Part shown: piece after piece, positions 8,229-15,509 of the stretch
How the letters are laid out: the number at the start of each line of letters is the position of its first letter
Numbering within the stretch: the stretch's first letter is position 1
DNA from: Pseudomonas anguilliseptica
GTDB lineage: Bacteria > Pseudomonadota > Gammaproteobacteria > Pseudomonadales > Pseudomonadaceae
Assembly (NCBI RefSeq): GCF_900105355.1
Contig: NZ_FNSC01000001.1
Coordinates: 2,604,001 to 2,668,000 of the forward strand
Length of the DNA stretch: 64,000 nucleotides
Direction: 5' to 3'
Notes under the pieces: model-generated
The model's input: the letters and a program-made list of their open reading frames with translations, nothing else
Told to the model about the DNA's origin: nothing
The model's database searches: none
Program-made: the position numbers and the translations under genes

Positions 8229-9420
8229 GGATGGTCTGAAAAAGACTTCCTGATTTTGGCAAAATATCCGCACTCCACCCGCCGAGTTTTCCGATGAAGC
8301 AGATGACCTTCGCCGACGCCGAGTACGCCGGCAAGCGCAAGCAGACCCGCAAAGAATTGTTCCTGATCGAGATGGATCGGGTAGTGCCATGGAAAGGGTT
8401 GATCGCTTTGATCGAGCCGCATTATCCAAAGGGTGAAGGCGGCCGACCGTCCTATCCGCTGATGGCGATGCTGCGAGTGCATCTGATGCAAAACTGGTTC
8501 GGTTACAGCGATCCGGCGATGGAAGAGGCGCTGTACGAGACCACCATCCTACGCCAGTTTGCCGGGCTGACTCTGGAGCGCATTCCTGACGAAACCACCA
8601 TCCTCAACTTCCGCCGCTTGCTGGAAAAACACGAACTGGCTGCCGGCATCCTGGCCGTGATCAATGGCTACCTGGGTGACCGTGGTTTGTCGCTGCGCCA
8701 AGGCACCATCGTCGATGCCACGCTGATCAACGCGCCGAGTTCAACCAAGAACAAGAACGGTAAGCGTGACCCTGAGATGCACTCAACCAAGAAAGGCAAT
8801 CAGTATTACTTCGGCATGAAGGCGCACATCGGGGTGGATGACGAGTCTGGCTTGGTGCACAGCGTGGTGGGTACTGCCGCCAACGTGGCGGATGTCACCC
8901 AGGTCGATAAGCTGCTGCACGGCGAGGAAAACATGGTGGGGGCCGATGCCGGATATACCGGTGTCGAGAAGCGCCCCGAGCATGAGGGCCGTCAAGTGAT
9001 CTGGCAGGTTGCAGCACGGCGTAGCACTTACAAGAAACTCGGTAAGCGCAGCGCGCTGTACAAAGCCAAGCGCAAAATCGAGAAGGCCAAGGCCCAAGTG
9101 CGAGCCAAGGTCGAGCATCCGTTTCGGGTGATCAAGCGTCAGTTCGGTTATGTGAAGACGCGCTTCCGTGGCCTGGTCAAAAACACGGCGCAACTGGTGA
9201 CTTTATTCGCGCTGTCAAATCTGTGGATGGCGCGCCGACATTTACTGACGAATGCAGGAGAGGTGCGCCCGTAATGCTGGAAATGGCTGCCGCGAGGTGC
9301 TCGCGGCGGCTAAAAACACAGAAATGAGCCGGTAATCTGATCGTTTTTGATCGATTTATCACTTTCGAAATCAGCAGAGGCTGACGTCAGCCAGAAATGC
9401 ATGGCTACTTCAGAGGATCC
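8229..9420 (+). mobile_element. IS5-family insertion sequence, copy A
   Basis: The element is 1192 bp. The ends are GGATGGTCTGAA and, inverted, GGATCCTCTGAA. It is flanked by identical TTAA at 8225-8228 and 9421-9424, a YTAR target duplicated on insertion, as is usual for IS5-type elements. Copy A is almost identical to copy D (55392-56583): the transposases differ at one residue. Confidence 0.9.
8294..9274 (+). CDS. IS5-family transposase (copy A)
   Basis: This DDE transposase has 326 residues. It opens MKQMTFADAEYAGKRKQTRK. The catalytic acidic residues are in IVDATLINAPSS and ADAGYTGVEKR, and the C-terminal E-containing signature is KVEHPFRVIKRQFGY. It is full length and appears intact. 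Confidence 0.9.
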   Translation: MKQMTFADAEYAGKRKQTRKELFLIEMDRVVPWKGLIALIEPHYPKGEGGRPSYPLMAMLRVHLMQNWFGYSDPAMEEALYETTILRQFAGLTLERIPDETTILNFRRLLEKHELAAGILAVINGYLGDRGLSLRQGTIVDATLINAPSSTKNKNGKRDPEMHSTKKGNQYYFGMKAHIGVDDESGLVHSVVGTAANVADVTQVDKLLHGEENMVGADAGYTGVEKRPEHEGRQVIWQVAARRSTYKKLGKRSALYKAKRKIEKAKAQVRAKVEHPFRVIKRQFGYVKTRFRGLVKNTAQLVTLFALSNLWMARRHLLTNAGEVRP

Positions 9421-13790: not shown

Positions 13791-14297
13791 ATGGAAAAAG
13801 TGCGCGTTCTATTCACCCGCCGCCGCCGCCGCCGCCGCCGCCATCCAGGCAGCGTAGCCATTCGCACGTTCACCTGGTCGGCCTGGTCGCATGTCGACCT
13901 GATCGACGACACGGGGAGCGCCCCGGTGTTGATCGGTGCCATTGCCTTTCAGGGCGTAGTGAAGGAAAGCCTTGAGCAGCGCCTGGCCAAAGCCAGCCGC
14001 GCGGCCCTGGTCGAGTTCCCGGTTAGCGATGCGGCGTCCGTTATTGCCGCCGCACGCGGCCAACTGGGCAAGCCCTACGACTGGGCCGGCATCGCGGGCC
14101 TGGTCACCCGTAACCGCGATTGGCAGGCTGAAGACAGCTGGTTTTGCAGTGAACTGGTGGCTTGGGCATTCACCCAGGGCGGCTCACCGTTATTCCGCGA
14201 AGACCTGGTCGGGCGAATCAACCCACAGCACCTGTGGATGCTCGCCCATCCATACCAGCGGCCAGAGCGGCCACTGGAATTATTGAATTTGATTTAA
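13791..14297 (+). CDS. Papain-like amidase/peptidase (YiiX / DUF830-type), phage-borne
   Basis: This gene gives 168 residues with the permuted NlpC/P60 arrangement: a His in AWSHVDLI, then GQLGKPYDWAGI and a Cys in DSWFCSELVAWAF. Such enzymes cleave amide bonds in peptidoglycan or lipids and are common near tail fibres in transposable phages. Near the N-terminus an uninterrupted run of eight Arg is encoded by a CGC microsatellite. No signal peptide is evident. Confidence 0.7.
   Translation: MEKVRVLFTRRRRRRRRHPGSVAIRTFTWSAWSHVDLIDDTGSAPVLIGAIAFQGVVKESLEQRLAKASRAALVEFPVSDAASVIAAARGQLGKPYDWAGIAGLVTRNRDWQAEDSWFCSELVAWAFTQGGSPLFREDLVGRINPQHLWMLAHPYQRPERPLELLNLI
13818..13841 (+). repeat. (CGC)8 trinucleotide repeat inside the amidase gene
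   Basis: Eight perfect CGC units encode eight consecutive Arg residues from codon 10. Length change in steps of three would vary the Arg run without breaking the frame. Confidence 0.9.
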
Positions 14298-14383
14298 GAG
14301 AGGGCGGCCAGTCCTAGTGTTCCAGCACCCGAACTGACCACCAACCCGCAGAACCAGCCTGCAAGCCAGCCAAGGCCCTCCCA

Positions 14384-14395
14384 CTCTCGCGAGAG
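14384..14395. promoter_or_regulatory. Perfect palindrome CTCTCGCGAGAG upstream of com-mom
   Basis: A 12-bp perfect palindrome lies 38 bp before the com ATG, just before a terminator-like hairpin. It could be a regulator site for the modification operon. This is suggested by position only. Confidence 0.35.
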
Positions 14396-14401
14396 CGGGG
14401 C

Positions 14402-14427
14402 AAGCCTATCTGAAATAAGGCTTTTTT
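14402..14427 (+). terminator. Terminator-like hairpin between the tail operon and com
   Basis: AAGCCT (14402-14407) pairs with AGGCTT (14418-14423), followed by a run of T residues to 14427. It would end tail-operon transcripts ahead of com, implying that com-mom has its own promoter or depends on read-through. Confidence 0.6.
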
Positions 14428-14432
14428 GCAGA

Positions 14433-14678
14433 ATGATCGACATACGTTGTGGCGGCTGTAGCCGCCTACTTGCCCGCGTTAGCGGGTGCTACACCCTACA
14501 AATCAAGTGCCCGCGATGCCGGACACTCAATAGCCAGACAGCCACGAGCTGCCCCACAGAACGCCCACGAGCGTCTCCATATATGGAAACGACTCGTGGC
14601 CAAACAGAAACCCTCGTATCACCCGCAACACCCAGGCACGTTCACGGCACCGACAACAACCCAGCCAGGCTTCATTGA
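14433..14678 (+). CDS. com: Com-like zinc-finger translational activator of mom
   Basis: This protein of 81 residues belongs to the Mu Com family (PF10122). The N-terminal treble of cysteines, C6-G-G-C9 and C26-P-R-C29, forms the zinc finger. Mu Com binds mom mRNA and opens the hairpin that hides its start. The tail beyond residue 35 is low complexity. The gene overlaps mom by 83 bases in another frame, and a hairpin containing the mom start lies within the com coding region. The start has a weak ribosome site. Confidence 0.85.
   Translation: MIDIRCGGCSRLLARVSGCYTLQIKCPRCRTLNSQTATSCPTERPRASPYMETTRGQTETLVSPATPRHVHGTDNNPARLH
14565..14599 (+). promoter_or_regulatory. mom translation-inhibitory hairpin
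   Basis: CCACGAG (14565-14571) is perfectly complementary to CTCGTGG (14593-14599), and TCCA/TGGA pair inside around a TATA loop. The GTG that I take as the mom start (14596-14598) lies in the 3' arm. A second CCACGAG at 14542-14548 could pair with the same 3' arm instead. This matches the known Mu Com/mom design, in which mom initiation is sequestered until Com binds. Confidence 0.75.
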
Positions 14679-15417
14679 AGGAACCGAAGCGACGGCAGGT
14701 TTTGGGCACCGCGACTTCTATATCGCGGTCATCCCCAGGGCCGAGGCGGTGAGCATCATCAGGGCCAATCACTATTCCAGGCGCATTGTCTCCAACAGCT
14801 TCATCCACCTGGGTGTTTGGGTGGATGGGGTTATGCGCGGAGTTTTGCAGTTTGGCTACGCCCTCAACCCAAGGGCGGCTGACAAGATCGTAGCAGGCAC
14901 AGAGATTGGTCAGTATCTGGAGCTAAATCGCATGTGGCTCGACGACATTGCGCCACGCAACAGCGAAAGCCGGGCGTTGAGCTACTGCTTCAAGTACATC
15001 AAGCGGGTATGCCCAGCTGTGGCTTGGATTCAGTCTTTTGCGGATGAGCGCTGCGGGGCTTGGGGCGTGGTCTATCAGGCGGCGAACTTCCATTACTTTG
15101 GCCACCACTGGACAAGCTTCTACGAGCTGGACGGCGAGACCTACCACAGCCAGCTGTTAAGCCGGCACAAAGCCAGTGGCGGGCGGGCGCAGTACCTGCG
15201 AGAGAACCTAGGTCGTGCAACCATCCACAGACTCAGGCAGTTCCGCTACATCTATATGGTTAAGCAGTCCTGGCTTAAGCGCTGCAAGGTCAGTCCGCTC
15301 CCGTATCCAAAGCCCGGCCAGCCTCTACCAGATCGGCGTAGGCATCGCCGGCTTGTCCAGGTGCCAAACACCGCGCAAAATTTGCCAACGCGGCGCACGC
15401 CGCGCGGTGCCAAATAA
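14596..15417 (+). CDS. mom: Mom-like DNA adenine modification protein
   Basis: From GTG 14596 the frame gives 273 residues (Mu Mom has about 231). Mom-family blocks are visible: FYIAVIPRAEAVSIIRANHY, SFIHLGVWVDGVMRGVLQFG, YLELNRMWLDDIAPRNSES and QSFADERCGAWGVVYQAANF. Mom adds a carbamoylmethyl (acetamido) group to adenine N6, protecting phage DNA from restriction. An upstream in-frame ATG (14449) would read through all of com and is less likely. The C-terminal 30 residues are Arg/Pro-rich and run into the phage end repeats. Confidence 0.85.
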   Translation: MAKQKPSYHPQHPGTFTAPTTTQPGFIEGTEATAGFGHRDFYIAVIPRAEAVSIIRANHYSRRIVSNSFIHLGVWVDGVMRGVLQFGYALNPRAADKIVAGTEIGQYLELNRMWLDDIAPRNSESRALSYCFKYIKRVCPAVAWIQSFADERCGAWGVVYQAANFHYFGHHWTSFYELDGETYHSQLLSRHKASGGRAQYLRENLGRATIHRLRQFRYIYMVKQSWLKRCKVSPLPYPKPGQPLPDRRRHRRLVQVPNTAQNLPTRRTPRGAK

Positions 15418-15442: not shown

Positions 15443-15509
15443 GCGCGCTTACAATCTCGCGAGCTAGAGCGAGACAAGGCGCTACGTTAGTAACAGCCTC
15501 CGGCTGGTC

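Follow-up and report, generated by a model that had tools for sequence, protein, structure and literature searches.

A com–mom module at the right end of a Mu-like Pseudomonas prophage, with a predicted two-box leader in which Com hairpins are proposed to compete for the mom start codon

The analysed stretch of Pseudomonas anguilliseptica DNA (64,000 nucleotides of NZ_FNSC01000001.1; here, the window) carries a com–mom module of a Mu-like prophage, whose mom gene is, in our judgement, probably translated mainly when Com is present, through the competing loops of two small leader hairpins, or Com boxes. As a pair of proteins, the module merely adds an ordinary member to com–mom, and com has already been linked in print to bacteriocins, tailocin cargo, lysins and levansucrase; the two-box, self-competing leader appears to be a new form. 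The many phage and bacteriocin genes that have similar hairpins suggest a shared translation switch.

The module consists of two overlapping genes:

14433–14678, forward strand: com, encoding an 81-residue CCCC zinc-finger protein of the Com family (PF10122, 1.7e-13; PHROG 6417, 1.9e-16)
14596–15417, forward strand: mom, encoding 273 residues from a GTG start, with an 83-nt overlap with com (PF25680, 6.8e-77)

Judged by these profile matches, the assignment of the two proteins to the Com and Mom families is solid. Com scores 50.2 bits against PF10122 (curated cut-off 22.9), the description of its PHROG match is "translational regulator", and its zinc ligands Cys6, Cys9, Cys26 and Cys29 (CxxC...CxxC) are invariant across nine Coms, that of Mu included. 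Mom covers positions 1–202 of the 202 of PF25680 with 258.1 bits (cut-off 27.1), and its residues 21–238 match chain A of PDB 8bv8, the solved enzyme "Methylcarbamoylase mom" (1.6e-62). A preliminary description of this DNA had proposed a Com-type zinc finger overlapping a Mom-like frame, both diverged from Mu and with a longer Mom; the searches over both frames bear this out, with the four cysteines in place and 46% identity to Mu Mom in the alignment, the locus protein being the longer of the two. The N-terminus of Mom aligns with that of Mom from the Pseudomonas phages PAN70 and JD024. From its family, the enzyme would be expected to modify adenine.

The GTG start codon (14596–14598) sits in the 3′ arm of a perfect 7-bp hairpin of CCACGAG (14565–14571) and CTCGTGG (14593–14599), with 21 nt between the arms, exactly where it had been described. 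A second anti-start copy and two small hairpins (14539–14551 and 14561–14574) were absent from that description. The elements of the leader are:

14539–14551, forward strand: Com box 1, CAGC-CACGA-GCTG, a predicted Com-binding hairpin with a 5-nt loop
14541–14548, forward strand: anti-start copy 1, GCCACGAG, in box 1, forming an 8-bp inverted repeat with 14593–14600
14561–14574, forward strand: Com box 2, ACGC-CCACGA-GCGT, a predicted Com-binding hairpin with a 6-nt loop
14565–14571, forward strand: anti-start copy 2, CCACGAG, which is the box 2 loop plus one base and the 5′ arm of the start-codon hairpin
14576–14587, forward strand: predicted mini-hairpin TCCATATATGGA, covering the weak Shine-Dalgarno GGA
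14593–14600, forward strand: 3′ arm CTCGTGGC with the GTG start codon

The 91-nt leader (14530–14620) folds with −24.5 kcal/mol and is far more stable than its shuffles (z −3.70; 0 of 200 as stable). When the com region was dinucleotide-shuffled 20,000 times, one or more CCACGAG copies fell in the 60 nt preceding the start arm in 0.9% of cases; two copies, as in the window, were never obtained.

In step-wise folds, both boxes appear first, and the start-codon stem dismantles box 2 once the start codon has been transcribed. Computed energies are −27.8 kcal/mol for the free RNA, −24.6 kcal/mol with box 2 held and −19.5 kcal/mol with both boxes held, from which the model predicts a double lock that takes ∼8 kcal/mol to open. 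When box 2 alone is held, the box 1 copy pairs with the start codon in the model; with both held, the GTG is merely 0.10–0.27 unpaired and the Shine-Dalgarno mini-hairpin persists. As a single strand serves both as 5′ arm of the start-codon hairpin and as loop of a predicted Com hairpin, Com would compete directly with the start codon, and Com binding and start-codon sequestration would, in this model, be mutually exclusive. We therefore propose a concrete switch for mom translation, in which the loop is the anti-start strand. Without Com, CCACGAG at 14565–14571 would pair with CTCGTGG at 14593–14599 and hide the GTG. During transcription the same CCACGAG would first form the loop of the 4-bp hairpin 14561–14574, of the kind bound by Mu Com, and the twin hairpin 14539–14551 would store the second anti-start copy. 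Com on both loops would keep both anti-start strands off and let ribosomes start mom; if box 2 alone were held, the upstream copy would recapture the start codon. We infer that this Com binds these boxes and that binding switches mom on.

Contractile-tail genes lie upstream of the module, with one transposase ORF among them, in the baseplate region. These late genes and the right-end position of the module agree with the Mu-like prophage proposed at the outset. An intact transposase was not found: in the left part of the prophage, a 359-residue ORF with a Mu DNA-binding domain ends beside a DDE_3 transposase ORF, so the prophage carrying the locus is probably defective. Similarity to a second com–mom module in the same genome ends 36 bp past mom, at ...CTTACA; target duplication at the prophage ends was searched for and none was found. 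The features concerned are:

15443–15453, forward strand: inferred prophage right end, ending ...GCGCGCTTACA, with similarity to the second copy stopping at 15453
8294–9271 of the window and L160:17690–18793: transposase ORFs inside the prophage, one of which adjoins the end of the Mu DNA-binding-domain ORF
G000:C1 2092550, 2618439, 2835776, 3356685, 3394880 and 4292005: com loci of the host genome, six in all, of which two are followed by mom and four by dam

The second module encodes a Mom that is 95% identical, and each of the four further com genes is followed by a Dam-type gene. The transposase ORFs and the cut Mu-type ORF of the window copy would suit a dead prophage whose intact com and mom frames are never made. 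We give this a small but appreciable chance, as the two genes, their two boxes and the pairing at the start codon are retained in both genome copies despite an identity of only 88.4% over the 1,622-bp stretch that bears com–mom. The Coms of the six host loci could also act on one another's leaders. Upstream of com, an ORF of a papain-like amidase type (13791–14294; Peptidase_C92, 2.1e-5, just under the cut-off) contains a run of arginine codons and has tail fibre genes as neighbours.

In phage Mu (NC_000929, L005), the Com zinc finger likewise overlaps mom, the start lies in a stem and the module is near the right end. According to the available text of PMC6483171, Mu Com recognizes CC(N)2-3GAG in a hairpin loop, with GA essential, a motif obtained by SELEX. 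The Mu hairpin ATGC-CTGCGA-GCAT has the C-NNN-GA loop seen at our locus. The com/mom overlap of Mu is 80 nt as annotated and ∼50 nt from the GUG named in the same text of PMC6483171; the annotation starts mom from an ATG inside the Com hairpin (L005:1186), and that text places the start at a GUG in the inhibitory stem. The single complete box of Mu stands next to the start-codon stem; the window has two complete boxes, both anti-start. A second Mu motif, CCACGGAG (L005 1201), is bare, without a hairpin of its own, and reaches into the start-codon stem; the Mu motif region is described as partly overlaying the inhibitory stem (PMC6483171, available sections). The Mu-type opening of the hairpin by Com that the preliminary description had envisaged thus holds in one part, since the start codon is in a predicted inhibitory stem, but not in the other, since the predicted Com hairpin lies inside rather than beside that stem, the box 2 loop being its 5′ arm. 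Upstream of com, Mu also has three GATC sites (L005 968, 986 and 999), compared to none in 14298–14432 of the window, where a single site is found at 14435, inside com. These GATC sites of Mu have a role in regulation by Dam.

Com boxes were present in every com leader scanned. Genes were taken from 298 same-genus genomes (88 positive), from the host genome and from seven phage records; 110 of 112 hits had both CxxC pairs, and two (L109 and L110) were dropped for having no second CxxC. A scan for hairpins of the form C-C(N)2-3GA-G with a stem of at least 3 found at least one box in 110/110 leaders and at least two in 89/110. Box 1 was in place, by position and loop type, in 92/110 leaders, box 2 in 102/110, and both in 85/110. 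The constancy of the C...GA loop and of the C–G closing pair is partly built in, as the scan required both. Control windows and shuffles were scanned with the identical rule, giving 0–8 of 109 for five other segments of the com loci, 5/42 for one upstream segment and 1–9 of 110 in ten mononucleotide shuffles. The bare motif was flanked by stems of at least 4 pairs in 161/273 cases in leaders, compared to 100/900 elsewhere. Rfam gave no match over com leaders in the stretches searched. The box looks like the cis-element of most Com-family genes examined, namely those preceding mom, dam, dcm, bacteriocin, lysin and levansucrase genes, where the class names come from one Pfam-scanned representative each plus BLAST clusters and some classes have no Pfam family. 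A possible third hairpin (e.g. GCGGAATCCTCCGC) lies between box 2 and the start in many bacteriocin-type leaders (alignments A2 and A3). Proteo-phage-1 RNA (RF03044) occurs near com or com-less box cassettes (L140:2017–2096, L144:1634–1713, L014:2599–2675 and L017:215–293).

At least 124 mom loci were collected from genome and viral collections, the viral part being the best 80 of 464. Fifty-one were kept with com, 61 were set aside (50 without the com pattern and 11 without the anchor word) and 12 duplicate leaders were dropped. Among the mom loci listed, 48/51 distinct com–mom leaders have at least one box, mostly in the same places; L173, L223 and L244 have none.

The effect of holding the boxes was also evaluated in the fold model for other leaders. 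For the com leaders, 9/110 were unclassed or outside the length range, and 94/101 were kept after removal of duplicates and unmatched rows; for com–mom, 36/51 remained after removal of near-duplicates and choice of starts. Start codons were picked by Shine-Dalgarno strength and may be wrong in places. Over the 94 leaders, holding the boxes changed accessibility of the initiation region by +0.091, compared to +0.019 at other positions, with the larger gain for the boxes in 62/94; shuffled flanks gave +0.018 (12 replicates, maximum 0.032). The 36 com–mom leaders gave +0.129, compared to +0.007 at other positions and +0.033 with shuffled flanks (replicate maximum 0.071). In the best structures of 30/36 nonredundant com–mom leaders, a count that has no shuffled counterpart, the boxes make at least 4 pairs with the initiation region. 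By class, antisense pairing to the initiation region exceeded shuffles for hp1 in 5/5 and hp2 in 4/5 of the mom class, and box 2 was antisense to the Shine-Dalgarno region in 8/12 bacteriocin and 5/6 small-protein leaders (p ≤ 0.05). Box–initiation pairing was not above shuffles in the dam (0/14 and 0/13), dcm, GH19, GH5, levansucrase and DUF6242-type classes, and accessibility drops with boxes held in the DUF6242-type class and at the single N4/N6 locus. The loops also follow the start codon: in 16/37 leaders a loop contains the sequence complementary to that leader's start codon, compared to 9.6 by permutation (P 0.0015, kinship ignored). This effect comes mostly from GTG loci, where CAC is found in 9/11; of 22 ATG loci, six have CAT and six have CAC. 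The strongest loop/start pairs are CCACGAG/CTCGTGG (GTG), CCACAGAG/CTCTGTGG (GTG) and CCCAAGAG/CTCTTGGG (TTG).

These data bear on a Mu-like mechanism without direct competition, in which Com binds one hairpin and melts an adjacent, independent stem, and the overlap of loop and anti-start strand is incidental. Such a mechanism is near the published picture of Mu, as far as the available text of PMC6483171 presents it, and Mu itself and one other locus (L201) behave accordingly in the fold model, where holding the hairpin gives no change. The pairing of boxes with the initiation region in most com–mom leaders, the covariation of start codon and loop and the excess of antisense pairing in the mom class nevertheless make it unlikely for the locus described here.

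Among nonredundant mom leaders of the loci listed, a box lies upstream of the start in 34/37 with com, compared to 5/42 without the com pattern (Fisher P 1.3e-13, kinship ignored), the control having been reduced to 42/54 leaders. In three of these five boxed leaders com is present but its first cysteine pair is shortened; in the other two it looks decayed by eye. On the host genome, the covariance model R1 matches exactly the six com loci. On 296 same-genus genomes it gave 130 matches in 86 genomes, all of them com-positive (coordinates compared by eye). An R1 match in G498 (30.9 bits) was inspected and attributed to chance. Twenty-six matches in 14 genomes are, by eye, not at a com, and all 26 sequences were taken. 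The com profile found no com directly before any of them, and a nucleotide remnant of com was seen in 3/26. Ten of the 26 follow a com at a distance of 0.7–3.3 kb and may be cotranscribed with it, six lie 11–16 kb from one by coordinates, and ten, in seven genomes, are on another contig or >0.5 Mb away. All 14 of these genomes belong to the 88 com-positive ones among the 296, for which the hypergeometric probability is 1.9e-8; for the seven genomes with distant copies it is 1.7e-4, both P values ignoring kinship. The genes that follow encode B-lectin bacteriocins, GH19 lysins, a DUF6242-type protein and proteins without a Pfam family (types partly by eye). In six lysin leaders (L141, L142, L146, L153, L154 and L156), the stem of box 1 is kept around a loop without GA (e.g. 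AAGC-CACGC-GCTT), and box 1 of these leaders may therefore no longer bind Com.

The alternative, that the boxes bind another regulator and com merely travels along, could draw on a genetic test, reported as data not shown, in which a com stop mutation on a plasmid left lscB-dependent levan production of P. syringae PG4180.M6 unchanged (PMC3899960, available sections). The same sections describe further com loci in the strain, which could have provided Com in trans in this test. We consider another regulator quite improbable: the loop fits the SELEX motif of Mu Com given in the available text of PMC6483171, com-less elements were seen solely in com-bearing genomes, and mom leaders without com mostly have no boxes. 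RsmA prefers GGA loops, and GGA is not common to the boxes.

The boxes also behave as an RNA element in comparative terms. Alignment A2, of 85 leaders after removal of 25/110 near-identical ones, has 91.6% of cells paired and a covariation score of 0.249, compared to 0.099±0.009 for shuffles (0/500 reaching it) and 0.106 for the best slid version. The number of pairs with double changes is unexceptional, being reached by 25/500 shuffles, with six in one slid version compared to five, and RNAalifold recovers box 1 only. The 26 com-less elements have 97.6% of cells paired and a score of 0.258, compared to 0.127±0.016; the covariation is carried by all four stem pairs of box 1, and box 2 is nearly invariant. 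That the hairpins are a coding by-product, with a conserved Com tail fixing the nucleotides and RNA function confined to Mu, was rejected as very improbable, even though the com frame contains the boxes and its tail has some conserved residues, because box 2 is spread over all three com reading frames (76/17/9) with a free loop centre, paired stem changes alter the protein (e.g. KATSL to RATSP), and the com-less copies stand without a com directly before them.

Com was found in 26 of 398 Pseudomonadota genomes, with 29 new loci, of which 21 were examined and eight were unmatched by the com pattern. Seventeen of the 21 are from other genera, and 16/17 have at least one box, with other stems; L129 has none. 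By eye, the genes after these boxes are mostly methylase-like.

The nearest named phages and proteins are those of Pseudomonas. Phages PAN70 and JD024 resemble the locus: both have com–mom with two boxes in about the same places, both boxes complementary to the initiation region, and Mom proteins 73.6% and 58.8% identical to ours, respectively (tblastn). In contrast to our locus, JD024 starts mom at ATG; com is unannotated in both. Pseudomonas phages B3 and UMP151 resemble the locus in a Com with tandem boxes and differ in the next gene, an adenine methylase (D12 family in UMP151); com before the methylase is annotated in B3. UMP151 has, by eye, an anti-Shine-Dalgarno arm, GCCTCCTGA/TCAGGAGGC, beside the boxes. 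The occurrence of com before lectin-like bacteriocins, tailocin cargo and lysins was published in 2018 (PMC6240691), and, in the words of the available part of that review, the more general role of Com in front of bacteriocin genes "remains to be explored". It describes no RNA element in that part, whereas boxes are found here, also without com directly before the gene. The phage-associated promoter element of P. syringae lscB/C, in which com precedes levansucrase and GH5 genes, is described in the available sections of PMC3899960 as a mobile promoter, with com judged unneeded for lscB. In the open-access literature searched, no description of the RNA element was found outside Mu.

A broader reading, which we put forward tentatively and regard as a serious possibility, is that Com is a translational activator with a portable RNA element of tandem C(N)2-3GA hairpins, often anti-initiator strands, and that it has a dispersed regulon in Pseudomonas, in cis and in trans, of which Mu is a one-box form. 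Such a regulon would comprise enzymes that modify DNA, bacteriocins of the lectin-like and colicin-M-like types, tailocin lysins, levansucrase and further cargo, with some of the genes distant from any com. The ten com-less elements 0.7–3.3 kb downstream of a com make this reading slightly less likely. The element provides a way to find Com targets without an adjacent com, and it makes the role of Com before bacteriocin genes testable through one 13-nt hairpin. It also marks a phage slot with varied DNA-modification genes: Mom, Dam, Dcm, N4/N6 and an ATPase-GNAT protein with a formyltransferase. In L007:2588–4623 and L035, an ATPase-GNAT fusion protein is encoded downstream of com, a candidate further DNA-modification set in the com slot; in L007, a small ORF precedes the fusion and a PF00551 formyltransferase follows it.
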